Positions 1-12,852 of a DNA stretch of 12,852 bases are shown piece after piece. A program made the position numbers and the translations under genes. A model generated the notes under the pieces. The model ran no database searches and was not told where the DNA came from. It worked only from the letters and a program-made list of their open reading frames with translations. Position 1 is the stretch's first letter. Each line of letters begins with the position of its first letter. This DNA comes from Rhodanobacter sp. (lineage in GTDB: Bacteria > Pseudomonadota > Gammaproteobacteria > Xanthomonadales > Rhodanobacteraceae): NCBI GenBank assembly GCA_026193555.1, contig JAPHUU010000044.1, forward strand, positions 1 through 12,852, read 5' to 3'.

Positions 1-406
1 CGTGCGGCTGGGGCTGGCATCTGCCAACCGTCTGACCGGATTGGCTGCTGCCGACAGCCCATGCCGTATCCGCGGCACTGATCCCTCACATCCGGCTCCG
101 ACAACGCACGGTGCGACACACGCGCTCGGCATGGTCGATTCCAGCACCAGCCCGATGGCAATCTGCTGACCCAAGGGCGAGCCACTTCACTGATGGTCGC
201 TCTGCCGCGCCACCCGATCCGAGGTCAATACACTCAAGCCGGCATGGACACGGCAACGGTTCGCGACCAGCCCTTTTCCGACCGACATCAGCTTATGGCG
301 CTCAAGCTCGCTCTCGCCCGCGTTTGCCTGAGCCACCTATCGGCACCGGGTGCTGCACATCAGAATCGAGCCCGCCCATGCAGTCGATGCCATGGCAAAA
401 GGCCGG
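1..406. other. Non-coding or unrecognised left edge
   Basis: No convincing gene is visible in this stretch. The open frames on both strands are short and give low-complexity Arg/Pro/Ser-rich translations without domain character, typical of chance frames in GC-rich DNA. One plus-strand frame is open from the window edge to a TGA near base 169, and one minus-strand frame is open from about 224 to the edge; neither has a ribosome binding site or a recognisable motif. The segment could be intergenic DNA downstream of the lipoprotein gene or a decayed gene remnant. I see no clear intrinsic terminator behind the lipoprotein stop codon. Confidence 0.5.
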
Positions 407-829
407 TCAATTATTCTTGGCGCCTTGATCGACCCAATCCGAGATCAGTTCCACGTCCCGTGGAGGAAGCTTGCGCGCATCGACCCCCGGCAGCACGATA
501 TTGTCGTGTCTGGTCAAGTCGATCGTGTAATTTTTCGGCATGTTGATCGTCTGGTCAGCCTGGTGTTTCACCAGCCTGACCAGGGTGCTGCCGACACTGC
601 TGCCCGGCGAGACGACGGGGCCATACCTGGTGCCCTTCATGACGTCCTCGTATGTCGCCACGCTGAAACCGCTCTGCTCGAAGCCGGCACCTCCCGGGCT
701 GTGACAAACAGAACAGTTATCCTGAAATATCGGGTTTATGTCCCGACTGTAGCTGACCGCGCGCTGGCTGCAGCCGGCAACAAGCAACAAGGCCAGTGGC
801 GCTGCATAAATGAATTTTTTGGAAGACAT
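407..829 (-). CDS. Monoheme c-type cytochrome lipoprotein
   Basis: The 140-residue product starts with a lipoprotein signal: two lysines, a hydrophobic stretch and a lipobox LVAGC with the lipidated Cys at residue 20. Ser follows the Cys, so under the +2 rule the protein should go to the outer membrane, facing the periplasm or the surface. One heme motif CSVCH is at residues 39-43, and Met97 in a MPKN segment is a possible axial ligand. The pattern RDINPIFQDNC..CH, then a VVSPG segment, MP and a closing ELISDWVDQGA resembles the planctomycete-type cytochrome c domain (PSCyt1-like). An in-frame ATG lies eight codons upstream, but AAGGAGG sits five bases before the ATG at 829, so I chose that start. 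It is the last gene of the minus-strand cytochrome locus, 275 bases after the membrane cytochrome. It probably relays electrons to or from the outer-membrane conduit; the exact partner is unknown. Confidence 0.85.
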   Translation of the reverse strand: MSSKKFIYAAPLALLLVAGCSQRAVSYSRDINPIFQDNCSVCHSPGGAGFEQSGFSVATYEDVMKGTRYGPVVSPGSSVGSTLVRLVKHQADQTINMPKNYTIDLTRHDNIVLPGVDARKLPPRDVELISDWVDQGAKNN

Positions 830-1064
830 GGTTGCCTCCTTGAGTCTTGCCATGAAAAACCGCGAATCCCAGCACCGTGGACATGCGCGGAATTCAGATC
901 AGGGAAGTAGCCATCCTTGGCTTGTCTGACGCCCGCCACTGATTCGGACGACCGACTCCCTGAAACCGTGTGCGTAAATCACGCCTGATTGAACCCGTCA
1001 CCGCCAACCCGCCGCCTGCAGCAGTCAGTGGGCACGTCGAGCAAAACGACTCGCCGACCCGGGA

Positions 1065-1100
1065 GCCTGCCTGAATACCCGTCAGGCCATGCAGGCAGGC
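1065..1100 (-). terminator. Hairpin just after the membrane cytochrome gene
   Basis: GCCTGCCTG (1065-1073) and CAGGCAGGC (1092-1100) form a perfect 9-bp inverted repeat with an 18-base loop. It begins five bases past the stop codon of the minus-strand membrane cytochrome gene. No T-tract follows on the minus strand, so it is not a canonical intrinsic terminator. It may weaken read-through into the lipoprotein gene or stabilise the upstream mRNA. Confidence 0.35.
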
Positions 1101-1104
1101 CCGA

Positions 1105-2226
1105 TCAATTCGACGAGGTCTTGCTCTCTGCGGCCGCCGGAAGAAAGATGATCTGATAGAGCGAAACGAATATCTGAATGCCCCACGCGCTTCCCAATAT
1201 CAGCCCGGAAACAATCACGGTATAGGCAAACACCGGATCCCATTTGGTCAGATACCACGTGGCGATATCTATGACCATCGCAAAGAAAGGCGCCACGATA
1301 ACGACATTCTTGAACCAGGCCGGAAGCGCCGTAAAAGTGAACACGAATCCCAGCACGAAGGTGACCAGCCCAATGCCAAACAGGTGAATGTGGGACAATT
1401 TCACCAATGTCTCGATCGACATGCCATGGTCGACCGTAGCCACGGGGATAATGCCCTCGTACGTCGTGTAATCCTTCAGGTTCTTGCCGGAGTTTGCGCT
1501 GTGACAACTCGCGCAATCCTTCATGACGATCGGATAGATCGTTTCGTCATACTCATCTTCGGTCGAACCGGATTTCAACCATGCAACCACCCGATCCATT
1601 TCATTCGGGCTGATCTTGTCCCGCATCTGGCCGCGCAGCATCAGCTCCAGTCGAGTACCGCTTCGATTGCCGTAGTACGTGATGGCGATGTCCTGCACCG
1701 AAATTCCGGGCTTGCCGCTGAGGCCTGCATGGGTCATGTACAGATAACCCAACGCCATGCAATAGCCAAGGCCAAGAACGCATATCACCAAGCCATACAG
1801 CGTGCGCTCACTGCTGGAACACTCGCGGAAGGTTCGCCCTTTCACCATCGGTCGATCCTGCGGAATGCGCCCGAACATGCGCCGTATCCAGAATATGGAT
1901 ACCACAATGCCTGCGGCACCAAGAATGAAGTGCATGATGGATACATCTTTTGCCGCAGAGCTCAGTGTGTCAGGGGCAAGGATTATCCACACCGTGAGAA
2001 GGAAGAATGCCCATGCAGGCCAGAGCGCGCGGCGCCATATCAACGCAACGACGGCCACCGTCATCATCAGAACGCCGGTGATGACGTAGGTCCAGAAAAT
2101 GCCGCGATTCAATGTTGCCAGAGGCCCGCTTATATACCATGGTGCGAAGATCGTCAGTGCACCGATGACCAAAGCGGAAATTCTTGCAGCCAATCTTTTT
2201 TGTCCCGGCACATGGTTGTTGTTCAT
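1105..2226 (-). CDS. Eight-helix inner-membrane protein with periplasmic monoheme cytochrome c domain
   Basis: The 373-residue protein has about eight hydrophobic helices (roughly 14-34, 43-63, 69-86, 96-114, 142-162, 278-298, 305-325, 333-358). A soluble domain at about 163-275 carries one heme c motif, CASCH at 238-242. Positive charges (WRR near 65; the Arg-rich 115-141 loop) sit on the cytoplasmic side, which places the heme domain in the periplasm as c-type heme attachment requires. The first four helices loosely resemble SPW-type membrane repeats. The last three, opening with a SHIH segment at 278-281, could form a quinone- or heme-binding anchor, but that is inference. I recall similar conserved membrane cytochromes beside MtrAB-type genes in betaproteobacteria. 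Position after mtoB suggests it links the periplasmic relay to the quinone pool, the job of CymA in other clusters. A TTG two codons upstream is possible, but GAGGAAG is spaced properly only for the ATG at 2226. Confidence 0.8.
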   Translation of the reverse strand: MNNNHVPGQKRLAARISALVIGALTIFAPWYISGPLATLNRGIFWTYVITGVLMMTVAVVALIWRRALWPAWAFFLLTVWIILAPDTLSSAAKDVSIMHFILGAAGIVVSIFWIRRMFGRIPQDRPMVKGRTFRECSSSERTLYGLVICVLGLGYCMALGYLYMTHAGLSGKPGISVQDIAITYYGNRSGTRLELMLRGQMRDKISPNEMDRVVAWLKSGSTEDEYDETIYPIVMKDCASCHSANSGKNLKDYTTYEGIIPVATVDHGMSIETLVKLSHIHLFGIGLVTFVLGFVFTFTALPAWFKNVVIVAPFFAMVIDIATWYLTKWDPVFAYTVIVSGLILGSAWGIQIFVSLYQIIFLPAAAESKTSSN

Positions 2227-2319
2227 TGCCAACTTCCTCGAATACTTCTGAAAATCAATGGCTTTTCAAAACACTATCCGCCATAAACTTTTCTGGTGAA
2301 TCGATAATCGACCGAGAGC

Positions 2320-2364
2320 ATCCCAACATGCCTTGATGGCATGTCGGGATCAAACGTGGTTTGA
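2320..2364 (-). promoter_or_regulatory. Tandem intercistronic hairpins after mtoB
   Basis: Bases 2320-2332 and 2338-2350 pair over 13 positions around a 5-base loop. The single mismatch becomes a G-U pair in minus-strand RNA, so the transcript can form an unbroken stem. A second short dyad, TCAAAC (2350-2355) and GTTTGA (2359-2364), abuts it. Both lie between the mtoB stop and the next gene in the same direction. No U-tract follows either stem, so mRNA processing, 3'-end protection or partial termination is more likely than full intrinsic termination. Confidence 0.5.
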
Positions 2365-2391
2365 AAGGCGCTACGCAGGGACCGATACTTG

Positions 2392-4776
2392 TTACATGAA
2401 ACTGTAGCGATAGGCCACAAACACGACATTCTCGGTGTAACTCGGGCTTGGCTGATTAGTCGGCATCGTCGTGGTGCCGGTGGAACCCAACTGGTAGAAG
2501 TTGTAGTAATAGTCGTTCGAGTTAAGCTTTTGGAAGATATAACCGGCGGCGACCGAACTGCGCTTGTCGATGTGGTAGTTGGCGGTCAATGCCGCCCGCA
2601 GCAATTCGCTGCTGATATTCGGTGTGGAACCACAGTTATAGCCACTGTTTCTGGGCGCCGTCGCGCACGTCACACCAGGGATGGCTGCGGTGGTGTAACT
2701 CTGCGTGTTGTAGCGCGTCGTATCCAGTGAGTAGGACGCATCGACCTTGAGATCGAGCTTTCCATGCATCAAGCCGTCATGCTTCAGATTGAAGCCGAAG
2801 GCCGAGCCCTTGTCGATCAGGTTGTTCGACCACCCGGTGAGCCCGGAAGTACCCACCGAATTACGTCCGGAAGTACTGACCATGTCGCGTGACCGGTATT
2901 GCCAGTTGGCATAGACCGACGCCGAGGTCTTCTCGGAGATCTGGTAGGCCGCGTCCAGATTGACACTGCCTGACTTGCCCTGTTGCACACCCAGGACCGA
3001 ATCGTAGTATTCGTCCTTCGTGCCGCGCATGTCCATGCTCAGGTTCAGCTTGTCGCTCGCCTGGAAGTTGACGCCGCCTTTGAGCATTTGTTGCCGGCGC
3101 GAGCCGTCAAAGAATGCCTGGTAGTTGTAGTTCTCGAAGCCTTCGCTGTTGGCCTGCAACGGGCTGTAGAAAGCCGGATTCACGGTGGAGTTGCGATCCG
3201 AATAGGCGTAACCCGCATTGAAGTTCAGCGCATCACTGGCATTCGCGCGGTAGTTGACCACGAACTTGTTCAGCTCTTCCTTGGGGACCGCAACGCAGCC
3301 GAGTACCCCGACGAGCTGGTAGTAACCAGTGTTCGTCGCGGAAACGTCGGCACCCACGGGGATGCCGGTGGCGGAGTCAACCGGTACCGCGTTGTCGCAC
3401 CCACGCCGTGTATCCTTGTACTCGTACCCGAAGTGCAGACGCTGACCGCTGGTGATGCGGTAATCGCCGTCGAGTGTTCCTTCCGTGGTCTTGTAACTGA
3501 GGGGAATGCTGAACGAGGTTTGCGCTTCGCCGCCCAGATCGAGGAACGTGTAGGTGTACGCCTGCGTCTGGTTGTCATGCTCGTTGTACTTGATACCCGC
3601 CGACAGGCTGAGATCCTTGGTGGTCTGGTTGGTGAGCTTGACGTCAGCATGGGTGGTGATGACCAGACCGTGCAGCGAATTGACGGGTAGCCCACCGGGC
3701 GCCATCTGATCCTGGTTGACATAACCCATGTTCTGCGTGTTGCGGCCGTAGGAATAGCCGCCGACCAGGTGGGTCGTTGGCGTCAGATTGTAGCCGCCGC
3801 TGAAATTGACCTGGTTGAAGTCATTGCTCGGCGGCGTACTGAGTGCGTTGACCGGATACGGCGCACCCAGCAAGGAACCATTGGGCGCCGTCCCGGTGTC
3901 GAACGGATTGGGGAAACTGACGCTCGAGTAGTTATCGACGAAGCGTGACCCGAAGTAGCCCGCGGTGAAAAATGCCTTGGTTCCAGCCCAGTTCAACGCG
4001 AAGTCGATGTTGTCCGTCGTGTAATCCGTCGGATTCATCAGCATCTGAATCCGCTCACCTCCGGCCGAATAGCCTGCCAGCGTGGCCCCGGCTGACGTAT
4101 TGTTCTCGTCGGTTCCGGAGGAGATCAGCTTCGCTCCGGACTGCTCGATGTGTTTCCAGTTCAGTTGGACATTCCACTTCGGGTTGAAGTTGTAGCCAAA
4201 GGTGACGCCCGTGTTGTAGCGGTCGGTGTGCACGTTGACCTTGTGGAAGTACCCGACCTGAGTGGGGGTGAGGACCTGCGTTCCATAGGGGATCGCGGTC
4301 GACGGCCGGCGAGTATTGACCGTACCGAACGCCTCCGGCATCGTGAAGACATTACCCCCCATGGACCCCTGCAGCGGCGTCCAGAAGTCAGCAATGTCGT
4401 GATGCTGCTGGGCGAAGTCGAGGCCGAACATCCAATGCCCCTGGTCCCGGATCGTGGCGTCGACCGCCCGGATGTCCGTTCCCAGATTCGTAGCGGCAAT
4501 CGACCAGCGGCGCGTACCCGGGCCCTGCCCGTAGGCATCGCCACCCTGCACGCCCAGACTGCCAATCCCGAAGATGCCGGACTTGCCCAGTCCGTTGTAT
4601 TGGCCGAAGTTGTAGGAATCACTGGACACATTGCCCAGACCCAATTCAACGAAATTGGTGGGCTTGGTCAGGATCGAGACGTCGTCATCACTCTGTGCGA
4701 AGGCAACCAGCGGCAATACCGAGAGGATCGCCAGCACCAGTGACTTGACGGAAAGCACTCCATTTACGGATTTCAT
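2392..4776 (-). CDS. mtoB: MtoB/MtrB/PioB-family outer-membrane beta-barrel
   Basis: The 794-residue protein has a Sec signal peptide ending VAFA-QSDDD (cleavage near 28). Long runs of alternating polar and aromatic residues follow, such as HLVGGYSYGRN, RLHFGYEYKDTRR and LNFNAGYAYSDRNST, typical of a large porin. The N-terminal part, with FVELGLGNVSSDSYNFGQYNGL and RRWSIAATNLG, matches the decaheme-associated MtrB/PioB family. Members form a barrel that sheathes the decaheme cytochrome and lets electrons cross the outer membrane. It is longer than Shewanella MtrB (about 700 residues) and closer to PioB-type proteins. No CXXC is present near the N-terminus; the few cysteines are in mid and late loops. 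The chain ends YRYSFM, one residue past the usual terminal aromatic. It begins 16 bases after the mtoA stop with a weak AGGGA site, so the two are surely co-transcribed. The mtoB symbol is chosen over mtrB or pioB because of the mtoD-mtoA-mtoB order. Confidence 0.92.
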   Translation of the reverse strand: MKSVNGVLSVKSLVLAILSVLPLVAFAQSDDDVSILTKPTNFVELGLGNVSSDSYNFGQYNGLGKSGIFGIGSLGVQGGDAYGQGPGTRRWSIAATNLGTDIRAVDATIRDQGHWMFGLDFAQQHHDIADFWTPLQGSMGGNVFTMPEAFGTVNTRRPSTAIPYGTQVLTPTQVGYFHKVNVHTDRYNTGVTFGYNFNPKWNVQLNWKHIEQSGAKLISSGTDENNTSAGATLAGYSAGGERIQMLMNPTDYTTDNIDFALNWAGTKAFFTAGYFGSRFVDNYSSVSFPNPFDTGTAPNGSLLGAPYPVNALSTPPSNDFNQVNFSGGYNLTPTTHLVGGYSYGRNTQNMGYVNQDQMAPGGLPVNSLHGLVITTHADVKLTNQTTKDLSLSAGIKYNEHDNQTQAYTYTFLDLGGEAQTSFSIPLSYKTTEGTLDGDYRITSGQRLHFGYEYKDTRRGCDNAVPVDSATGIPVGADVSATNTGYYQLVGVLGCVAVPKEELNKFVVNYRANASDALNFNAGYAYSDRNSTVNPAFYSPLQANSEGFENYNYQAFFDGSRRQQMLKGGVNFQASDKLNLSMDMRGTKDEYYDSVLGVQQGKSGSVNLDAAYQISEKTSASVYANWQYRSRDMVSTSGRNSVGTSGLTGWSNNLIDKGSAFGFNLKHDGLMHGKLDLKVDASYSLDTTRYNTQSYTTAAIPGVTCATAPRNSGYNCGSTPNISSELLRAALTANYHIDKRSSVAAGYIFQKLNSNDYYYNFYQLGSTGTTTMPTNQPSPSYTENVVFVAYRYSFM

Positions 4777-4792
4777 ATCACGTCCCTAATAG

Positions 4793-5824
4793 TTAACGAT
4801 GCAGGTAGGCGCCAGCGGGGCTGTTTGAGCCATGGACCATCACGTGGCAATTCAGGCACGCGCGTCCGCCACCGCTTGAGCTTGGGTTTGGTGCACGACC
4901 GCCACTGGCCGCGAATCCTGCGATGGTCGATTGCAAGCCACCAACGTTCGGACCAAAGGCTGACTGACTGTTGTGCGGACCGTCGTGGCATTCGGCGCAG
5001 AGGAAGGGCGGACGCGACTTCAGCAGCGGCGAGATGTTCGAGCCATGTGGCGTATGGCAATTCGTGCAATCCTCGGCCACCGGCTGGTGCTCCCACAGGA
5101 ACGGGCCGCGCTTTTCCGCATGACATGTCGTGCAGGTCTCGTTCACCGTGGCTTTCGTCAGCAGGAACGGTCCGGTGGAGCCGTGCGGGTTGTGGCAGTC
5201 GGAGCAAGCCACCTGGCCTTCGCCGACGGGGTGGTGAGATATCTTCCGCAGGTCGGCCTTGCGGTCTTTGTGGCAGGTTTCGCACACGGCGGCCTGGGTC
5301 TCCTTGCTGCGCACCGGGTCGACTGCGTTATGAACCTTGTGGCAGTCGTTGCAGGCCAGACCATTGGTCTGATGTTTGCTTCCTTCCCAATGGGTGCGCT
5401 GCGTACCCTTGTGACAGGTCAGGCATACGCCAGTACGGTCGCCCGCATCCGACATCGGGTAGTCATGTTTGTTGAACATCACATCCGGCGGCGGAATCCC
5501 CTTTCCCGTCTTGTCTCCGGCCAGATGCTTCTCGCTCGTGCCGTGGCACGACTGGCAAGTCGGCGTCCGCGCATCGCCCTTGACACCATGCGGTGTCTGG
5601 TAGATCGACAAAATCGGCTTCGATTCATTCTCGTCATGACACCGAGTGCATTTCGCATCATCGGCCAGCGCACGCCTGGCTGTTTCAGCGGTCGACTGAT
5701 GCAATGCTGCCTGGTTTGAACCCAGGTCGGGTAACTGGATGGGGGGGTTGCCCGCCAACGCTGGCACAGTCCAGCTTGCCAGGATGAGGGTAGCCCCCAG
5801 GATGAGTTTCTTTGTGAGATGCAT
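4793..5824 (-). CDS. mtoA: Periplasmic decaheme cytochrome c, MtoA/MtrA family
   Basis: The 343-residue protein has a signal peptide cleaved after about residue 24 (PALA-GN). It carries exactly ten CXXCH motifs: CTRCH 59, CQSCH 90, CLTCH 134, CNDCH 158, CETCH 181, CSDCH 207, CTTCH 231, CTNCH 253, CAECH 276 and CLNCH 323. Extra His residues in NPHGS, TPHGS and HHP segments can serve as distal ligands for bis-His hemes. Length and heme count fit MtrA (about 333 residues) and MtoA; the long N-terminal extension of PioA is absent. In this family the protein threads the MtoB/MtrB barrel and conducts electrons between periplasm and cell exterior. A Gly/Ser-rich linker separates hemes nine and ten. 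AGGAAGGGA lies eight bases before the ATG. mtoD precedes it by 175 bases and mtoB follows at 16 bases. The family alone does not say whether the flow is inward (Fe(II) oxidation) or outward (metal reduction). Confidence 0.95.
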   Translation of the reverse strand: MHLTKKLILGATLILASWTVPALAGNPPIQLPDLGSNQAALHQSTAETARRALADDAKCTRCHDENESKPILSIYQTPHGVKGDARTPTCQSCHGTSEKHLAGDKTGKGIPPPDVMFNKHDYPMSDAGDRTGVCLTCHKGTQRTHWEGSKHQTNGLACNDCHKVHNAVDPVRSKETQAAVCETCHKDRKADLRKISHHPVGEGQVACSDCHNPHGSTGPFLLTKATVNETCTTCHAEKRGPFLWEHQPVAEDCTNCHTPHGSNISPLLKSRPPFLCAECHDGPHNSQSAFGPNVGGLQSTIAGFAASGGRAPNPSSSGGGRACLNCHVMVHGSNSPAGAYLHR

Positions 5825-5999
5825 TTGTCAGGTCCCTTCCTGCTTTATCGATGGGTTGATCAAGCTCTGCCGAATCAGATGTTTCGCTGGATCTTGCTTC
5901 TCGCGACTTCGACATGAACTTCTGGTTGGCACATCACCCGGCTCACTCATGGGTAGATAACAGCGGCGGTCCGGGTGGCCCGCAAATGCCAGCTGACGC

Positions 6000-6356
6000 C
6001 TACAGCGAAAGGATCCAGTCCACCAGATTCTTGATTTGTGCCGTGTCGTTCGCCGGATCCGTCTTGATGATTTCGTGGTGCACCTGACTGCCATCGGCGA
6101 GCTTCACCATCTCACCCGATGTCAGGTGATGGATCAGCTTTGCCTCGGCGTCTGGATTGCCCTTGTACTTTTCCGCAGTTTTTCTCCAACCCGGGCCGTC
6201 CTTGTCGCGCGAGATGGCGTGACACTTGAAGCAGTTGTTGGTCCTCGCCAATGCCTTGGCCGCATCCATGTCGGCGGCGCGAGAGGTGGGAGCAAACGCA
6301 AAAATGGCGATACCGGTGACGATGGTTGCCAGCGCGGAGCGAGAAATTTGCATCAT
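6000..6356 (-). CDS. mtoD: Small periplasmic monoheme cytochrome c, MtoD-like
   Basis: The 118-residue product has a signal peptide cleaved near residue 27 (SRA-ADMDA) and one heme motif, CFKCH at 42-46, in the class I context AKALARTNNCFKCHAI. It closes with a typical C-terminal helix, IKNLVDWILSL. It resembles cytochrome c551/552-type shuttles, but the usual MPP-like distal segment is missing; the only Met after the heme is Met83 (SGEMVKLADG), and His pairs occur at 76-77 and 93-94. The frame stays open far upstream, but the signal peptide and AAGGTG eight bases before the tandem ATGs fix the start at 6356 (the second ATG, 6353, is also possible). As the first gene of the mto order it should carry electrons across the periplasm between MtoA and inner-membrane partners. 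Assignment as MtoD rests on size and position. Confidence 0.82.
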   Translation of the reverse strand: MMQISRSALATIVTGIAIFAFAPTSRAADMDAAKALARTNNCFKCHAISRDKDGPGWRKTAEKYKGNPDAEAKLIHHLTSGEMVKLADGSQVHHEIIKTDPANDTAQIKNLVDWILSL

Positions 6357-6418
6357 TTCAATTTCACCTTGGTGGATGGTTTTTCCCAAGTACTGACCTG
6401 TGGCATCGCTTGCAGCAC

Positions 6419-6443
6419 ACCATAGGCATGAGCGAATTATGGT
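6419..6443. promoter_or_regulatory. Secondary half-site pair ACCATA/TATGGT
   Basis: ACCATA (6419-6424) and TATGGT (6438-6443) form a 6-bp dyad with a 13-base gap, and CCATAGG at 6420-6426 repeats the arm of the larger palindrome at 6485-6506. It overlaps the candidate -10. It may be a second, weaker site for the same regulator, or chance. Confidence 0.25.
6436..6441 (-). promoter_or_regulatory. Candidate -10 element for mtoD
   Basis: On the minus strand this reads CATAAT, a 5/6 match to TATAAT, about 80 bases before the mtoD start. No good -35 hexamer lies at 16-18 bases spacing, which would fit an activator-dependent promoter. The assumed transcription start is near 6429. Confidence 0.3.
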
Positions 6444-6484
6444 CGTGACCCATGAGGCCAACCATCGGAGAGGGGATGAAAATT

Positions 6485-6506
6485 GCCATAGGATTAGTCC
6501 TATGGC
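6485..6506. promoter_or_regulatory. Perfect 9-bp-arm palindrome, candidate response-regulator operator
   Basis: GCCATAGGA (6485-6493) and TCCTATGGC (6498-6506) are exact reverse complements separated by TTAG. The centre is about 140 bases upstream of the mtoD start and about 66 bases upstream of the transcription start inferred from the -10-like element, a position usual for an upstream activator site. NarL/LuxR-type regulators bind dyads of this general design, and one is encoded by the divergent operon. The pairing of site and regulator is inference. Confidence 0.5.
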
Positions 6507-6771
6507 GGATAGGAAATAATGAGTGCGGCCCCGCCCATATCGGTGACGAGGAGGGCACTCGACCTGGAACCGATACGCATAGCGAGTGAGGCACCCGGCC
6601 GGCCGTGGACACAGCCAAGGTGCCTGGTGACCGCCCAGCACCGTTGACCGGCGTACCCGTCGCATGGATCCCCGCCAAGCATCGAGTGGCCATCCATGCT
6701 TCAAAGCCCGCCGGAAACCTCTTCGGGTACCCCCACCCCGCGAATCAGTGCCGCTTGACGAGAGCCTCTGG

Positions 6772-6785
6772 TTGATCTGCGTCAA
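6772..6785. promoter_or_regulatory. FNR/ANR/DNR-type box
   Basis: TTGATCTGCGTCAA matches the FNR-family consensus TTGAT-N4-ATCAA at nine of the ten defined positions. It lies in the divergent intergenic region, about 312 bases before the kinase start and about 420 bases before mtoD. Such boxes respond to low oxygen (FNR/ANR) or nitrogen oxides (DNR). At a usual -41.5 spacing the plus-strand start would be near 6820, where only a weak -10 is visible, so the target promoter is uncertain. Confidence 0.5.
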
Positions 6786-6881
6786 GTGTCAACGCAGCCA
6801 TGTGAGTAACCTCTGCATGGATGCTGCGGGCTCCGGCATGGCTTGCGCCAGTACAAAGTCCGGACAGGGAAAGCCCAGATG

Positions 6882-6887
6882 TACAAT
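6882..6887 (+). promoter_or_regulatory. Candidate -10 for the small ORF and two-component operon
   Basis: TACAAT, a 5/6 match to TATAAT, lies 30 bases before the strong ribosome binding site and start of the 32-codon ORF. No good -35 is seen at the proper distance. It would give a short leader of about 22 bases. Confidence 0.25.
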
Positions 6888-6916
6888 GACTTACGGTGCA
6901 TCAAGGGGGAGGAGAC

Positions 6917-7015
6917 ATGCCGTCAATCTTCGCGATCGCGCGTGCTCATGGTGGCCATGCATCGACGTTCCCGGCAGGGAACGTGAGCATGATGACCTGC
7001 TTGATGGTCCAGTGA
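6917..7015 (+). CDS. Small ORF with strong RBS upstream of the kinase (possible leader peptide)
   Basis: An ATG follows a purine-rich site, AAGGGGGAGGAGAC, the strongest Shine-Dalgarno in this intergenic region. The 32-residue product, beginning MPSIFAIARAHGG, ends at a TGA 68 bases before the kinase ATG. It lies in a different frame from the kinase and has no recognisable motif, signal peptide or codon run such as clustered aromatic or branched residues that would point to a known attenuator. It may be a leader peptide whose translation affects kinase expression, a genuine small protein, or a chance ORF beneath a real ribosome site. Confidence 0.35.
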   Translation: MPSIFAIARAHGGHASTFPAGNVSMMTCLMVQ

Positions 7016-7083
7016 CCCAGCCACCGTCCGTGCGCCCTGCCCCTTCTTCGCGCCCGAGTCGCACCGCCTTCGAGAGCCCGAGC

Positions 7084-9117
7084 ATGTCCAAACAGCCATT
7101 CCGCCCGGCCCGAGCGATCTATCTGCTGGCTGCACTCACGATCATCGCCATAGCCATGCTGGTGGCTTCCTTTCTCCTCAATCTGCGTGCTCGCGATCTG
7201 GCGCGCGCGCATCGGGAAACCAACAGCCTGGCGCGCCTGCTGATGGATCAGACCGAACAGTCATTCCGCAACGCAGACCTCGCCCTTCGGGGAGTTCAGG
7301 ACCGGTTGCAGACTCCGTACGGAATCCAACTGGGCCTGGACAGCCCGCAGGTTCAGCTGCTGCTTGGCACCAAGCTCGCTGGATCGCGGCAACTGGCCGA
7401 GATATTCGTCGCCGATGCAAACGGCCGTGTTGCCAATTCATCCAGCCCTGACACGATACTGCGCAGATCAGTGTCGGACGCGGGCTATTTCAAGCTTCTT
7501 TCCCAAGGCCAGGAAACCGGGCTTTTCATCAGCCCCCCCGTAAAGGATCAGGCCAAAGGCACCTGGCTGCTCTATCTTGCCCGCCGCATCGATGATCCGG
7601 ACGACCGGTTTCGCGGCGTCGTGGTGGCCGCCATCGACCTCGATCACTTCGAACAGTTCTACGGCTACATGGAGCAGGACTTCCTGCGGCCGATCGGGCT
7701 CTACATGAACGATGGCATGTTGATCGCCAGCCTGCCCCATCGTGAAGATGACATGGGCAAGCCGGCGCCCGAATTGCGGGGTGTGCGTTTTGACTCGACG
7801 AACGAGGACCTGCGGCAATTCAGCCACAGGAATACGGACGACAGTCGGCGGGTATTCGCCCTCGGCTACGTCAAGGATTTCCCCTTCCTGGTAAGCGTCA
7901 CCAACAACGATGCGGAAACGTTGTCGGCCTGGCACGAAAACGCCATTACCGTCGTGGCCGGCGCACTGCTGGTGTCGTTCTTCATCATCGTTGCCGCGGC
8001 GCTGTTGGCGATCGAGCTGCGGCGGGAGGCTTCGCTCAATTCCGCCCTGCAGGAGGCGGACGATCGCTATCGACTCACCATCGACTCGGTCATGGACGCG
8101 ATCGTCTCAGTGGATGAGGCGCAAAACATTGTCATGTTCAACCTGGCGGCGGAACACATGTTCGGCGTGTCTGCCACCGACATCATCGGCAGGCCGCTGA
8201 CCTGTCTGATGCCGATGCCAGGGCGCGAGGCCCACGAAGGGCATGTGCAATCGTTCATGGACTCGAGCGTGCCCTCGCGGGGGATGGCGATGCAGGTGGA
8301 GATCTTCGGGCTCCGTGCCGACGGTCGCGAGTTTCCGCTGGAATCGGCCATCTCGCAAACGATGATCAACGGCAAGCCGCAGTTCACCGCCGTCCTGCGG
8401 GACATCACCGAACGCCATCGCAAGGACGCCGATCTCCGCAGGATCAACTCCGAGCTGCGCCAGCTGTCGATCTCGCTGCAATCCGTGCGCGAGGAAGAGC
8501 GCACACGTATTTCCCGCGAATTGCACGACGACCTGGGCCAGCAGCTGACCGGACTCAAGCTGGAACTGACCTGGCTCAGCGGACGCCTCAGGGAAGGCCG
8601 GCAGCCAGAGCCCGGCATGCTCGATGCCATGCGCCAGATGCTGGATGGCGCCATTATTTCCGTCCGCCGTATCTCGACCGAACTGAGGCCACGGATCCTG
8701 GACGATCTCGACTTGGCGGAAGCCGTGTGCTGGCAGGTCGAGGAACTCACCAAGCGCAGCAACCTCCAGGCCGTGTGCAACCTGCCGGCAGCGGAACTGG
8801 TCAAGGAAAACACCCTGGCGACGGCGCTCTTCAGGATCGTGCAGGAAGCGTTGACGAATGTCGCACGTCATGCAAATGCGGATCAGCTGGAGGTAAGTTT
8901 CGTCGCGGATGGTGACGAATTGGTTTTGAGCGTGCGCGATTCGGGCAAGGGTTTTGTTCACGACCACAACGGCAGTGGCATCGGACTGGTCAGCATGCGC
9001 GAGCGCGCCACCGCCGTCGACGGCAAGTTCACGATCATGAGTGCGCCCGGGCATGGCACCACGATCGAAGTGCGGGTCCCCTTCAAAGTTCCGATCCCGA
9101 TGGGAGAAGAGACATGA
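7084..9117 (+). CDS. Membrane sensor histidine kinase (extracytoplasmic sensor, PAS, HisKA_3, HATPase_c)
   Basis: The 677-residue protein has a first membrane helix at about 11-33, an extracytoplasmic sensor at 34-285 of dCache/PAS-like style (FVADANGRV, a SDAGYFKLL segment, VVAAIDLDHFEQ) and a second helix at about 288-312. A cytoplasmic PAS domain follows at about 325-445 (DRYRLTIDSVMDAIVSVD to RDITERHRK). The HisKA_3 dimerisation domain has phosphoacceptor His481 in ISRELHDDLGQQ. The ATPase domain shows an N-box QEALTNVARHA at 587-597, a G1 DSGKG at 619-623 and a G2 GSGIGL at 630-635. All catalytic motifs are intact. The signal is unknown; I see no heme or Fe-S motif in the sensor. The frame is open to about 6664, but that extension is unlike protein; the ATG at 7084, with GAGAG seven bases ahead, starts directly at the membrane helix. 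It overlaps the response regulator by ATGA, so the two form a cognate pair. Confidence 0.92.
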   Translation: MSKQPFRPARAIYLLAALTIIAIAMLVASFLLNLRARDLARAHRETNSLARLLMDQTEQSFRNADLALRGVQDRLQTPYGIQLGLDSPQVQLLLGTKLAGSRQLAEIFVADANGRVANSSSPDTILRRSVSDAGYFKLLSQGQETGLFISPPVKDQAKGTWLLYLARRIDDPDDRFRGVVVAAIDLDHFEQFYGYMEQDFLRPIGLYMNDGMLIASLPHREDDMGKPAPELRGVRFDSTNEDLRQFSHRNTDDSRRVFALGYVKDFPFLVSVTNNDAETLSAWHENAITVVAGALLVSFFIIVAAALLAIELRREASLNSALQEADDRYRLTIDSVMDAIVSVDEAQNIVMFNLAAEHMFGVSATDIIGRPLTCLMPMPGREAHEGHVQSFMDSSVPSRGMAMQVEIFGLRADGREFPLESAISQTMINGKPQFTAVLRDITERHRKDADLRRINSELRQLSISLQSVREEERTRISRELHDDLGQQLTGLKLELTWLSGRLREGRQPEPGMLDAMRQMLDGAIISVRRISTELRPRILDDLDLAEAVCWQVEELTKRSNLQAVCNLPAAELVKENTLATALFRIVQEALTNVARHANADQLEVSFVADGDELVLSVRDSGKGFVHDHNGSGIGLVSMRERATAVDGKFTIMSAPGHGTTIEVRVPFKVPIPMGEET

Positions 9118-9794
9118 CCAGGGTGCAGGTACTCGTTGCCGATGACCACGGGGTGATCCGCAACGGCCTCAAGAAGATCCTCGACGACACGCCGGACCTG
9201 GAGTTCGCGGGCGAAGCCTGCGACGGCAAGTCATTGCTCGACAAGGTTCGCCAGCGCAACTGGGGCATGCTCATCCTCGACCTGTCGATGCCGGGACGCA
9301 ACGGCCTGGAGCTGATCAAACTGGTCAAGGAAGTGCGACCGCAGCTGCCCATGCTCATCTTCACCATGCATCAGGAAGAACAGTACGCCGTGCGCGCACT
9401 GCGCGCAGGCGCCTCCGGCTACCTCACCAAGGAATTCGACGGCGACTTCCTGCTGTCGGCCATCCGCAAGGTCGCCACCGGCGGCATCTACGTCAGCGCC
9501 AAGGTCGCCGAACTGCTCGCCAGCGATGTTTCCAAGCCGCAACACGCTCCGCCGCATACCCTGCTGTCCAACCGCGAATACGAGGTTTTCAGCCGGCTCG
9601 TCCGTGGCAACAGCCTGACCGCAATCGCCTACGAATTCTCGTTGAGCATCAAGACCGTAAGCACACACAAGTCGCACCTGCTCGAAAAGATGGGGCTGGC
9701 CAACCAATCCGACCTGGTGCGCTACGCCGTCAATCACGGGTTGCTGGATGCGGAGCCGGACAATCTCCAGATGCAACATTCCTCCACCATCTAA
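9114..9794 (+). CDS. NarL/FixJ-family response regulator
   Basis: The 226-residue protein has a receiver domain with acidic residues Asp10 and Asp11, phosphoacceptor Asp56 in LILDLSMPGRNG, Thr84 in IFTMHQ and Lys106 in GYLTK, so phosphorylation should be normal. A LuxR-type helix-turn-helix follows at about 151-210 (LSNREYEVFSRLVRGNS, then IKTVSTHKSHLLEKMGL). Its ATG overlaps the kinase TGA, and a GGGAGAAGAGA purine run inside the kinase end supplies the ribosome site; such coupling keeps the partners in balance. It is the natural candidate to bind the palindrome upstream of the divergent mtoD gene, but its targets cannot be proven from sequence. Confidence 0.94.
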   Translation: MTRVQVLVADDHGVIRNGLKKILDDTPDLEFAGEACDGKSLLDKVRQRNWGMLILDLSMPGRNGLELIKLVKEVRPQLPMLIFTMHQEEQYAVRALRAGASGYLTKEFDGDFLLSAIRKVATGGIYVSAKVAELLASDVSKPQHAPPHTLLSNREYEVFSRLVRGNSLTAIAYEFSLSIKTVSTHKSHLLEKMGLANQSDLVRYAVNHGLLDAEPDNLQMQHSSTI

Positions 9795-9807
9795 CCGACG
9801 AGCCAGT

Positions 9808-9830
9808 GCCGGGGCAACCCTGCCCACGGC
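9808..9830 (+). terminator. Hairpin after the response regulator
   Basis: GCCGGGGCA (9808-9816) pairs with TGCCC-A-CGGC (9821-9830) around a 4-base loop, giving nine pairs with one bulged A. It begins 13 bases past the regulator stop codon. There is no T-tract, so this is a likely but non-canonical transcript end. Confidence 0.4.
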
Positions 9831-9883
9831 GGGCCTCACGCTGCGGTAGCGAATACCCAAGCGCGCCGCCGACAGCCAGCCAG

Positions 9884-9899
9884 CCGGCCGGCCGGCCGG
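9884..9899. repeat. (CCGG)4 tandem repeat
   Basis: Four perfect CCGG units, preceded by two CCAG-like units, sit between the convergent response-regulator and SUMF1-like genes. The tract is fully self-complementary. It is probably a simple-sequence expansion. Confidence 0.6.
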
Positions 9900-9924
9900 A
9901 TTACCCGACCACCATCCGGGCGGG

Positions 9925-9944
9925 ACGGCACCACCATCGGCCGT
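9925..9944 (-). terminator. Weak hairpin downstream of the SUMF1-like gene
   Basis: ACGGC (9925-9929) and GCCGT (9940-9944) form a 5-bp stem with a 10-base loop, about 40 bases past the stop of the minus-strand gene. No T-tract follows, so support as a terminator is weak. Confidence 0.2.
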
Positions 9945-9984
9945 GCGATTTGCACTGCGCACACGGCCGCTGCAGCGACCAGGT

Positions 9985-11916
9985 CTACAGCTCGCGCACC
10001 ACGCGAAAACCCACTCGACCACTGCGCACATCGCTGATCGCACCTTGACGGTAGGCCGAGCGCACCTGCTCCGGTGAACTGCCCCACGAACCGCCGCGGA
10101 CGACGCGGGCGCTGCAACCGGGATTGACCCAGGCGCTGCCATCGTCGGGGGCACGGATGTAGCTTTCGTGCCAGCAGTCCTGCACCCACTCCGACACGTT
10201 GCCGTCAATGTCGTACAGGCCGAACGGATTAGCGGCAAAGCGCATCACCGGTGCCGGCCCCCAATAACCGTCGTGGTAGCCGCGGAAAGCGTGGCTCCAG
10301 CTGCGGCCGCTGACCGAACGGTCGCCGGCGCCAGTCATGTTTTCCACCAACCGCTGCGGACTGCCTTCGCCCCACCAGTAACGGGTCGTGGTGCCCCCGC
10401 GCAAGGCATATTCGAACTCGGCCTCGCTGGGCAATCGGTAGACCTTGCCGGTACGTTGGCTCAGCCACGATGCGTACGCTTCGGCGTCATTCCACGAGAC
10501 GTTCACCACCGGCAGGTTGCCGGCGGCCGGATGGCCGGCGTAATCATCCTGCCAGCGGGCACTCGAGTCGTCGCGCATCGCGCCGCGGCGTTCATCGTAG
10601 ACGCTGGCACCACCCAGCTTCACCGAATCGGGCGTGTAGCCGCTGGCGCGGACGAACTCGCGGAACTGGGCCACCGTGATCGCACTCTGCGCCATAGCAA
10701 AGCCCTTGCTGATGTTGACCTCGTGCTGCGGCAGCTCCGCATCGTTGCGCCCACTGTCGCCGGCGCCCATGTCGAAACTGCCGGTAGGAATCACCACCAT
10801 CGCCGGCGTCTTGCCTGGCAAGTCGACATAGCGGTCGCTGAAGACCTGACCTGGCTTGTAGCTGGCATACAATCGTGCATTGGTCAGTTGCTCCTCGAAA
10901 TCGGCCAGTCCGACCAGGTTCGGGCTGATCGTCCGCGCCTGCGCCGCCAACTTGGCCGCCATCGCGACATTGCCGGCATCCAGCGCCAGATGGGCCTGCG
11001 ACAGCACGCCATTGGCGCGCTGCTCGCGCATGTCCTCGACCCGCTTGCGCACATCCTGCATCTGCTGGGAACCGGGACGAATGGCGTCTGCCTCCACCAG
11101 CACCCGATCCGCCGCGGCGAAATCGTTTTGCGCCACCGCCGCCAGCGCCCGGTCGAGTACCGCCCGCTGCACCTGAAAAATCCCCTGCTCTGCCACCGCA
11201 TTCTGCGGGTCAAGTTTCTGCACCTCACGGTAGAGATCCAATGCACTCGCACCACTGGGTTGATCCGCCTTGCCCTGCTGCAGCAAACCGGCAGCCTTTG
11301 CCAGCATCGGCCGCACCTTGGCCAGCGTGGCGAGGCTCGCTTCCAGATGCGCCACCTCCGCGGTGGCATTGGGCAGCGTGCGCAACTCATCCAGCAGCTC
11401 ATTCGCCGCATCGGCATCGCCCACGGCAATATCCTGATCGATCTCGGCCACCAGCCGCGCGCGCACGTCGAACAACCCCTGGGCGGCAAGGCGGCTGTCC
11501 GGCTTTTGCACCAGGGCCTGCGCAAACAGCGCGGCTGCACTGTCGTCCCCTCCAACCAGCCGGCCGGCACGCAGCGCCTTGGTCGCGCGCGCCAGCAATG
11601 CCTGCACTGCCGGGGTATCCTTGCTCAACTGCTCGGGCAGGCTTGCTGCCTTGTGGCCGCGCGCCACGATGACCGCCGTCGGCGCCAGGGTCAACGGTGG
11701 TCCCGCATTGATCTCGGACACCGCCGGCACATGTACCGACGGCAACCCATTGGCCGGTGCCACGGCACCGATCGACATCGAGCGGCGTGGCTCCCGGATC
11801 GGACTCACATGCAACAGACGCGGAAAAAAGTGATAGGTCAGGGCAAACCCGAGCACGATGATCCCCATCGCGCCGCCGAGGGCGCGCTGGTGCTTCAGGA
11901 TCACGTTGCTCGGCAT
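9985..11916 (-). CDS. Membrane-anchored helical-repeat protein with SUMF1/FGE-like C-terminal domain
   Basis: The 643-residue protein has a single N-terminal membrane helix at about 12-31, a Pro/Ala-rich linker, and an Ala-rich helical region at about 100-350 with TPR-like repetition (AQALVQKPDSRLAAQGLFDV, LYREVQKLDPQNAVAEQGIF). A formylglycine-generating-enzyme-type domain fills about 365-643. Family motifs are clear: VVIPTGSFDMG, VVNVSWNDAEAYASWLS, YRLPSEAEFEYALRGG, GNVSEWVQDCW, RVVRGGSW and GRVGFRVV. In true FGEs a cysteine pair near the RxAxR segment carries out the reaction; here that segment is RSAYRQ without Cys, and only Cys581 and Cys601 occur elsewhere, so sulfatase activation is unlikely. 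Such domains also serve as binding or structural modules. AAGGA lies nine bases before the ATG. The gene runs convergent to the two-component operon and divergent from rnd, and looks like part of the core flank. Confidence 0.85.
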   Translation of the reverse strand: MPSNVILKHQRALGGAMGIIVLGFALTYHFFPRLLHVSPIREPRRSMSIGAVAPANGLPSVHVPAVSEINAGPPLTLAPTAVIVARGHKAASLPEQLSKDTPAVQALLARATKALRAGRLVGGDDSAAALFAQALVQKPDSRLAAQGLFDVRARLVAEIDQDIAVGDADAANELLDELRTLPNATAEVAHLEASLATLAKVRPMLAKAAGLLQQGKADQPSGASALDLYREVQKLDPQNAVAEQGIFQVQRAVLDRALAAVAQNDFAAADRVLVEADAIRPGSQQMQDVRKRVEDMREQRANGVLSQAHLALDAGNVAMAAKLAAQARTISPNLVGLADFEEQLTNARLYASYKPGQVFSDRYVDLPGKTPAMVVIPTGSFDMGAGDSGRNDAELPQHEVNISKGFAMAQSAITVAQFREFVRASGYTPDSVKLGGASVYDERRGAMRDDSSARWQDDYAGHPAAGNLPVVNVSWNDAEAYASWLSQRTGKVYRLPSEAEFEYALRGGTTTRYWWGEGSPQRLVENMTGAGDRSVSGRSWSHAFRGYHDGYWGPAPVMRFAANPFGLYDIDGNVSEWVQDCWHESYIRAPDDGSAWVNPGCSARVVRGGSWGSSPEQVRSAYRQGAISDVRSGRVGFRVVREL

Positions 11917-12014
11917 GGATGGGCGTCCTTGAGTTGGCCTGTTATCGTGCGGTGCTCACCATAGGCACAAACCGCCGACAGGGCAATCCACGCCCTGCAC
12001 TCCAAGGAACATTG
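11917..12014. promoter_or_regulatory. Divergent promoter region of the SUMF1-like gene and rnd
   Basis: These 98 bases separate two divergent genes and must hold both promoters. On the minus strand a GATAAC is preceded at 18 bases by TTGTGC, a weak match to the -10/-35 pattern. No clear plus-strand promoter is visible. Confidence 0.3.
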
Positions 12015-12852
12015 ATGTCACTGTCTGAGACGGCAACCGCCGACTGGATCGATCACCGCGATGCACTGCAGGCCTGGCTGGCCCGCTTGCCTGCGGACGC
12101 ATCCGTTGGACTCGACACCGAATTCATGCGCCGCAACACGTTCTACCCGCAACTGGCGCTGCTGCAACTGGGCTGGAACGGCCACCACGCGCTGATCGAT
12201 CCGCTCGCATTCGACATCGGCGATGCACTGCAGCCGTTTTTCGGCAACGGCGCCGCCATTACCGTGATGCACAGCGCCAGCGAGGATCTGGAAACCCTCT
12301 CGCCGCTGCTGCCGCACGGCCCGCGACAGCTGTTCGATACACAGATCGCCGCCGCCTTCGTCGGCATGGGCCTGGGCATCAGCTACCGTGCGCTGGTCGC
12401 CGATCTGGTCGGTGTGGAGCTGGACAAGGGCGAGACCCGTTCGGACTGGCTGCAGCGCCCGCTCACTGCCTCGCAATGCGACTATGCAGCACTCGATGTG
12501 GTGTACCTGAAGACCATCCACGAGCAGCTCGGCGAGCGCCTGCAGCAACGCGATCGCAGCGCCTGGCACGCCGAGGACTGTGAGCGCCTGAAACGGCGCG
12601 CCAGCCGCCGCGACGGTGACCCGCAACCGCAACGCTCGATGCGCGGCGCTGCCGAGTGGCCGGCCGAGCAGCAGGCACGGCTGCGCCGCCTGTTGCTGTG
12701 GCGCGAACGCAGCGCACGCGACCTCGACGTGCCCCGCCCCTGGCTGATCGACGACAACCTTGCCATGAATCTGGCCCAGCAACCGCCGGCCAACCTTGGC
12801 GATCTCGAGCAACGCAGCCGAGGCCAGCGAGCCCTGCGTTCGGCGCCGCGCA
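12015..12852 (+). CDS. rnd: Ribonuclease D, 5' part (runs off the window)
   Basis: The 279 visible residues are open to the window end, so the gene is cut by the window rather than broken. The 3'-5' exonuclease domain shows the DEDDy residues Asp34 and Glu36 (GLDTEFMR), Asp91 (MHSASEDLETL) and Tyr157 with Asp161 (CDYAALDVVYL). An HRDC domain begins at about 214 (WPAEQQARLRRLLLWRERSAR, with DVPRPWLIDD). RNase D trims the 3' ends of tRNA precursors and other small RNAs in the cytoplasm. AAGGA at 12004-12008 stands six bases before the ATG. It is a core gene and much richer in G+C than the cytochrome locus. Family length is about 370-390 residues, so roughly 100 residues lie outside. Confidence 0.95.
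   Translation, partial: MSLSETATADWIDHRDALQAWLARLPADASVGLDTEFMRRNTFYPQLALLQLGWNGHHALIDPLAFDIGDALQPFFGNGAAITVMHSASEDLETLSPLLPHGPRQLFDTQIAAAFVGMGLGISYRALVADLVGVELDKGETRSDWLQRPLTASQCDYAALDVVYLKTIHEQLGERLQQRDRSAWHAEDCERLKRRASRRDGDPQPQRSMRGAAEWPAEQQARLRRLLLWRERSARDLDVPRPWLIDDNLAMNLAQQPPANLGDLEQRSRGQRALRSAPR

Follow-up and report, generated by a model that had tools for sequence, protein, structure and literature searches.

The closest described counterpart of the locus reported here is the mto cluster of Sideroxydans lithotrophicus ES-1, which runs from mtoD to pmcA (Slit_2498 to Slit_2494; PMC12016527). In the ES-1 genome (G495, L259) the order is mtoD, mtoA, mtoB, a gene for a 198-aa tetraheme NapC/NirT protein (ImoA/CymA; PF03264, 2e-75) and a gene for a 138-aa monoheme cytochrome, whose product has been named PmcA (PMC13390432). 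The ES-1 scheme was redrawn in 2026 on account of the inability of MtoD to supply ImoA: MtoD (+155 mV) interacts with neither MtoA nor ImoA, PmcA (-143 mV) interacts with both, and MtoD has been suggested to feed a high-potential acceptor (PMC13390432). The path that electrons take between the iron oxidases of the outer membrane and the respiratory chain is a weak point of current models. A natural Mto cluster with MtoD and a PmcA-like protein but without ImoA is a direct test case for the ES-1 scheme. Here we analyse such a cluster in a stretch of 12,852 nucleotides from Rhodanobacter sp. (contig JAPHUU010000044.1, positions 1 to 12,852 of the forward strand), called the window throughout.

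Rhodanobacter, a genus of soil and groundwater, reportedly dominates a culture that oxidises Fe(II) with reduction of nitrate, and MtoAB-like as well as CymA-like proteins have been reported in it (PMC11366258). The earlier note on this DNA, made from the letters alone, had called a Xanthomonadales bacterium an unexpected home for neutrophilic or nitrate-linked iron oxidation. The host assignment stands; the surprise was overstated given that report, and it is weakened further by our survey of 45 genomes of the genus (host assembly included, as G000), 23 of which carry a strong match to the MtrB family (E<1e-60), most of them of other types than that of the window. As MtoAB-like proteins in Rhodanobacter are already known, what appears to be new is the inner-membrane partner.

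The cluster comprises five genes (Table 1) in the same slot-for-slot order as in ES-1, four of the five being homologous, so that the Mto identity and gene order proposed by the earlier note are borne out. Identity to ES-1 is 59% over 72% of the query for MtoD, about 60-61% over 92% for MtoA, 40% over 99% for MtoB and 36% over 78% for the fifth protein (two-sequence E 2e-29). The fourth slot is exchanged: ES-1 has the tetraheme ImoA (NapC/NirT) there, whereas the window has a monoheme membrane protein, SPW-PF27139, without PF03264. We consider it probable, at roughly 0.6, that the cluster is an operon for electron uptake of the Mto type, in which the inner-membrane entry protein is of a new kind, and that it leads electrons from Fe(II) inward to the inner-membrane chain.

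Motif count, curated models and a crystal structure agree with the earlier note on the first three genes. MtoD matches the structure of ES-1 MtoD (4xxl) at 3e-34 and keeps in the alignment both axial histidines, His47 and His95 in ES-1 numbering, which are the bis-His ligands of that protein (PMC4412085). MtoA, with its ten CXXCH motifs, exceeds the TIGR03508 cut-off (5.9e-85), and MtoB, whose gene starts 16 bases past mtoA, exceeds those of Pfam MtrB_PioB (4e-109) and TIGR03509 (1.5e-120). The first, fourth and fifth genes each encode one CXXCH and mtoB none. No second multiheme open reading frame was found in the window among stop-to-stop stretches of at least 60 aa, all others having at most one CXXCH.

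MtoA is 57-66% identical to its 16 best matches in Gallionellaceae genomes and 43-49% identical to the other-type decahemes of its own genus. A tree of 57 rows, for which the other-type rows of the genus served as outgroup, places it in a set of 39 rows (support 87/84) together with the MtoA of ES-1 and CL21 and further homologues; the window-type rows form one group (88/87), and a wider set (96/91) also takes in strain ES-2 and three loci of Gallionellaceae that have an additional multiheme gene and are labelled MtrC-type. Shewanella MtrA, represented by one row, lies outside on a long branch. MtoA thus appears to group with the MtoA of Fe(II) oxidisers, and the grouping with metal-reducing MtrA that the earlier note had named as evidence against itself did not occur; the contrast is thin, because the one MtrA row is partial and long-branched and there is no PioA row.

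The fourth protein is the point of departure from ES-1. PF27139.1 and PF03779 are precomputed assignments on its homologues, including ones 92-93% identical to it, and are carried over from these to the window protein; its SPW match (3e-6) lies below the family cut-off. PF03264 gave no match in it up to E 1, and it holds one CXXCH, as against the four hemes of NapC/NirT proteins such as CymA and ImoA, which supports the earlier note in that the cluster has no CymA-type gene. Homologues number 818 at E<=0.001. Among 120 listed homologues, four (P0043, P0074, P0099, P0114; 503-520 aa) are fused to an FMN-binding domain (PF04205, NqrC/RnfG-like), and these fusions point to redox work. Residues invariant in 103 aligned rows include M202, C239, C242, H243, H280, H282, D321 and W325, numbered on a 374-aa reading from 2229. 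In an AF2 model (pLDDT 86) the heme stretch falls between two helices (139-166 and 272-297), and H280/H282 and D321/W325 would share the periplasmic end of the helix bundle. In a tree of the family, the five Mto-linked copies and four rows to which no partner was assigned make up one set (100/100), placed among copies from Cyc2-linked and other loci; this would fit a single joining event with Mto, without showing one. We found no paper on an SPW-PF27139 inner partner, or on the accession PF27139, in the open-licence PMC literature, and the partner is apparently undescribed.

The earlier note had also held that two single-heme proteins stand in place of CymA/MtoC. This applies to the membrane protein, which occupies the imoA/cymA slot. 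The last gene encodes a PmcA homologue at the ES-1 position and is therefore a standard partner and not a CymA replacement. The window protein and ES-1 PmcA both exceed the PSCyt1 cut-off and have the C-terminal WVDQGAKNN in common, and the window protein keeps the methionine equivalent to Met74, the proposed axial ligand of ES-1 PmcA (PMC13390432). ES-1 PmcA is a soluble periplasmic protein whose signal peptide is cut before DVSFK; the window protein differs in an extra loop and in a lipobox (LVAGC, by eye), and a lipobox-like cysteine is seen in eight other genus copies as well. By BLAST, ES-1 is the only one of the Gallionellaceae loci read to have a PmcA-like gene. In a Gallionella metagenome-assembled genome (MAG; L056, 1006-4184), a PmcA-like gene lies two genes before a cytochrome b gene, which is followed by cytochrome c1; the intervening gene matched no Pfam family at 1e-5.

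Within the genus, the window-type MtoAB occurs in five genomes (G000, G010, G019, G066, G067). All five loci have the five genes in the same order, which argues that the cluster is not a chance arrangement. The PF27139 protein is present in ten copies in nine of the 45 genomes, and in all ten loci the membrane gene is paired with a PmcA-like gene. Upstream of the five pairs outside the MtoAB loci stand a Cyc2-like gene (G014, G010, G060), a porin gene with a diheme gene (G064) or nothing recognised (G023). Since the pair stands behind MtoAB, Cyc2-like and porin-diheme genes, the same inner module accompanies more than one kind of outer conduit. A 98-aa open reading frame at G023/L026, suggestive by eye of an MtoB remnant, was dropped, as MtoB gave no tblastn match there at E 0.05. 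The G064 genome also holds a Cyc2-like gene in several pieces with stops (C86, 20688-22420). MtrB-family genes of other types occur in 19 of the 45 genomes, G010 having both types, and the regions L138, L139, L140 and L141 show an other-type decaheme, a large outer-membrane-type gene and a diheme.

A CymA homologue encoded near the window, which in the earlier note would have spoken against its reading, was not found: a PF03264 search for CymA/NapC in the host assembly (89.9% complete) gave no match. Six other genomes of the genus have PF03264 matches, all inside decaheme MtrA-type genes (20.2-21.5 bits alone; 25.5-28.9 when summed over the frame; cut-off 24.1). The CymA-like proteins reported for Rhodanobacter (PMC11366258) were not seen in the 45 genomes. 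A Cyc2-like gene is present in 38 of the 45 at E<=1e-5, host included, in G008 by a short weak match only. The RuBisCO large subunit is encoded in five, again with the host among them (C318, 2712-3632; L172), where an apparent LysR-type regulator lies alongside (by eye). RuBisCO occurs in four of the nine genomes with a PF27139 gene and in one of the 36 without (Fisher p 0.004, the genomes being related). That the host encodes a Cyc2-like protein and RuBisCO supports the uptake reading.

Outside the genus, the family is wide. At least 570 named PF27139 loci exist, and of the best 80 four have an MtoA match in their neighbourhood, these being again the genus genomes G066, G010, G067 and G019. 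The membrane gene was called in 78 loci of this set, and eight of them have a protein with a relaxed Cyc2 motif no more than 5 kb away; the eight include several genomes of Methylococcaceae type, one of Natronospirales and one of a Gammaproteobacterium. The published motif before CXXCH, AXPXFAR[Q/K][T/Y] (PMC8406198), is matched in L034; the three partner genes of the genus read PAFSRQV, L093 and L094 read PSFTRQT and the host copy on C158 reads PSYARQT. In zetaproteobacterial loci, monoheme and triheme cytochrome genes often come after the PF27139 gene (L078, L080, L081, L082, L086, L090, L095, L099), and in L078 so does a HemN-type gene. In a sample of 369 genomes of the class, PF27139 was found in 57, MtrB in 28 and a Cyc2-like gene in 39. 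PF27139 and Cyc2-like genes occur together in 12 (p 0.008; 0.017 without the host), within about 3 kb of each other in three of these, and PF27139 and MtrB in eight (p 0.05; 0.10 without the host). All of these p values should be read as approximate: the genomes are relatives of one another, and scoring covered just the best few candidates in each. Use of PF27139 as a marker of MtoAB is unsupported by this co-occurrence and by an adjacency seen in the host only.

From these data we propose the following route, its outer steps by homology. MtoA, inside the MtoB barrel, would accept electrons at the cell surface, whether from Fe(II) or from an Fe(II) mineral, and lead them through the outer membrane. 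Two periplasmic proteins would then collect them, the PmcA-like lipoprotein as a low-potential route and MtoD as a high-potential route. The SPW-PF27139 cytochrome, placed in the ImoA/CymA slot, might receive them via its heme and hand them on to the chain of the inner membrane, where the quinone pool is the likeliest recipient and bc1 the alternative; H280, H282, D321 and W325, on the periplasmic side of the helix bundle, are the candidate quinone site. The inward direction, Fe(II) as donor, the membrane topology and quinone reduction are all inferred. More tentatively, SPW-PF27139 and the PmcA-like lipoprotein may form a portable, undescribed electron-entry module for MtoAB or Cyc2-type conduits, which would replace CymA/ImoA and fill the step behind Cyc2. 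Should the pair really serve both, the two conduits would have one entry protein in common that is open to testing, the pair might outdo the conduits alone as a marker, and Rhodanobacter would become a candidate for real electron uptake.

Several observations weigh against this proposal. The proteins are known here from their gene sequences, and conduits of this kind can run either way. The membrane protein has no solved-fold match (Foldseek, 0 at E<=0.001; VIA-align, helical-bundle scores only), so that the case for quinone binding is built on the predicted topology and the conserved residues. In the tree, the wider Mto set includes Gallionellaceae loci that have an additional gene for 7-10 hemes. 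No clear association is seen between RuBisCO and the window-type cluster itself (2/5 against 3/40, p 0.09), the three window-type genomes without it being 82, 86 and 91% complete. PF27139 often stands without an iron gene nearby, for instance, in MAGs of Gallionella type, beside priA (L067) or an FAD-linked oxidase gene (L057), and many loci of Gallionella or of marine origin had no heme gene picked out in their vicinity; in L041 it lies beside pyruvate:ferredoxin oxidoreductase genes, a locus which also has a Cyc2 gene. In the 369-genome sample it adjoins MtrB in the host only, the seven others having the two on different contigs, where contig breaks could hide neighbours.

Inward conduction by MtrA has been stated (PMC10734462), and the rival readings differ in direction or in the inner step. 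The conduit may run inward while the membrane protein is an anchored relay and MtoD the main shuttle; the electrons would then go to a high-potential acceptor, for example a terminal oxidase or a complex of bc1 type. MtoD is indeed kept in all five loci in which ImoA is absent; ES-1 MtoD cannot reduce ImoA and is proposed to feed such an acceptor (PMC13390432), and a family member (L082) and a PmcA-like gene (L056) lie near bc-type cytochrome b/c1 genes in two other genomes. The slot, however, belongs to a quinone-active protein, and several invariant-rich helices behind the heme domain exceed the needs of an anchor, so that we regard a mere relay as unlikely, though as the most serious competitor to entry into the quinone pool.

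Export of electrons onto Fe(III) or other outside acceptors, as in MtrCAB or DmsE-type systems, seems improbable to us. The NCBI decaheme family takes its name from DmsE, its conduits are thought to be reversible, and CymA- and MtrB-like proteins of Rhodanobacter have been linked to iron reduction (PMC11366258). Against export stand the lack of an MtrC-like gene in the window and of a CymA match in the host, the match of MtoA, MtoD and the PmcA-like protein alike to the Fe(II)-oxidiser set, and the occurrence of the same inner pair in loci with Cyc2-like conduits; a metal-reducing MtrAB reading is thus not our first choice, by tree and gene set, and is kept as a rival. It is very improbable that the last two genes are bystanders behind mtoB, engaged in redox sensing or cytochrome maturation. 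The wide family with its varied neighbours would suit this, as would the spacing around the membrane gene, 165 bases ahead of it and 275 behind, with a hairpin on either side, but the pair is kept in five of five MtoAB loci and ten of ten genus loci, and Cyc2-type neighbours recur in the named loci and in the class genomes, at the frequencies given above.

The window corresponds to contig C297 (12852 bp) of the host assembly (2.96 Mb, 465 contigs, 3% contamination). The gaps between the five genes, from mtoD onwards, are 175, 16, 165 and 275 bases. The probable starts are 2226 for the membrane gene and 829 for the lipoprotein gene, a Shine-Dalgarno-like stretch preceding each (by eye). A strong hairpin lies at 2319-2364 between mtoB and the membrane gene and a second one just after the membrane gene; relatives have hairpins as well, their sequences differ and none shows a T-run.

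Table 1. Genes of the mto cluster and its flank in the window.
Feature	Coordinates	Strand	Product	Basis or remark
mtoD	6356-6000	minus	118 aa, class-I monoheme cytochrome c, periplasmic, bis-His type	4xxl match, axial His pair
mtoA	5824-4793	minus	343 aa, periplasmic decaheme cytochrome	10 CXXCH, TIGR03508, Gallionellaceae identity, tree
mtoB	4776-2392	minus	794 aa, outer-membrane beta-barrel, would sheath MtoA	MtrB_PioB, TIGR03509
Inner-membrane monoheme gene	2226-1105	minus	373 aa, SPW-like N-terminal helices fused to PF27139 with CXXCH	
PmcA-like gene	829-407	minus	140 aa, periplasmic monoheme lipoprotein	homology to Slit_2494, PSCyt1, lipobox
Sensor histidine kinase gene	6664-9117	plus, divergent from mtoD	dCache-PAS-HisKA_3	Pfam; true start perhaps near 7084
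LuxR/NarL-type response regulator gene	9114-9794	plus	Response_reg and GerE	possible cluster regulator
FGE-sulfatase-domain gene	9985-11916		643 aa, C-terminal FGE-sulfatase (SUMF1-like) domain	Pfam; adjoins kinase-regulator pair

Beyond the FGE-sulfatase-domain gene lies one for a ribonuclease-D-like protein. Copies of the kinase stand beside the cluster in G066 and G010 (70-81% identical), and these two genomes have the regulator as well (81-95%); related kinase and regulator genes were not found in the stretches fetched for G067 and G019. The FGE-type gene is 75% identical in G066, where kinase, regulator, FGE-type and ribonuclease D genes all flank the cluster at 75-95% identity, so the window contig fits the genus Rhodanobacter. 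The closest named homologue of the membrane protein is a Rhodanobacter terrae entry (93% identical). The host is taken as Rhodanobacter, which supports the Xanthomonadales origin suggested by the earlier note. ES-1 and the window both have divergent two-component genes beside mtoD; with about 30% identity over 227 kinase residues and 26% for the regulator, a common regulator was not used as evidence.

Among other described conduits, Gallionella capsiferriformans ES-2 and similar loci have the MtoD-MtoA-MtoB core in common with the window. The ES-2 type (L271) has a membrane protein with eight CXXCH, MtoC, encoded before mtoD, whereas no MtoC-type gene was found in the window, to which this search was confined, the rest of the host genome not having been searched for MtoC. 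Shewanella MtrCAB has the same decaheme-barrel architecture (MtoA against 6r2q chain A, 2e-64) and differs in having MtrC and CymA; no gene for an outer-surface multiheme MtrC was found in the window. The fused cytochrome-porin Cyc2 is absent from the window, and in three other loci of the genus a Cyc2-like gene precedes the same pair of membrane and PmcA-like genes. The mto locus of a Gallionellaceae member of culture KS likewise has a non-CymA inner partner with small cytochromes, described as Cytc1-Cytc2-Cytbc with Cytbc being b561 plus diheme, and by this description it is set apart from the partner found here (PMC5566968). As MtoC of ES-2 and other inner partners are known, Mto clusters tolerate an exchange of the inner partner, and the SPW-PF27139 protein in the fourth slot of the Rhodanobacter cluster joins this series.

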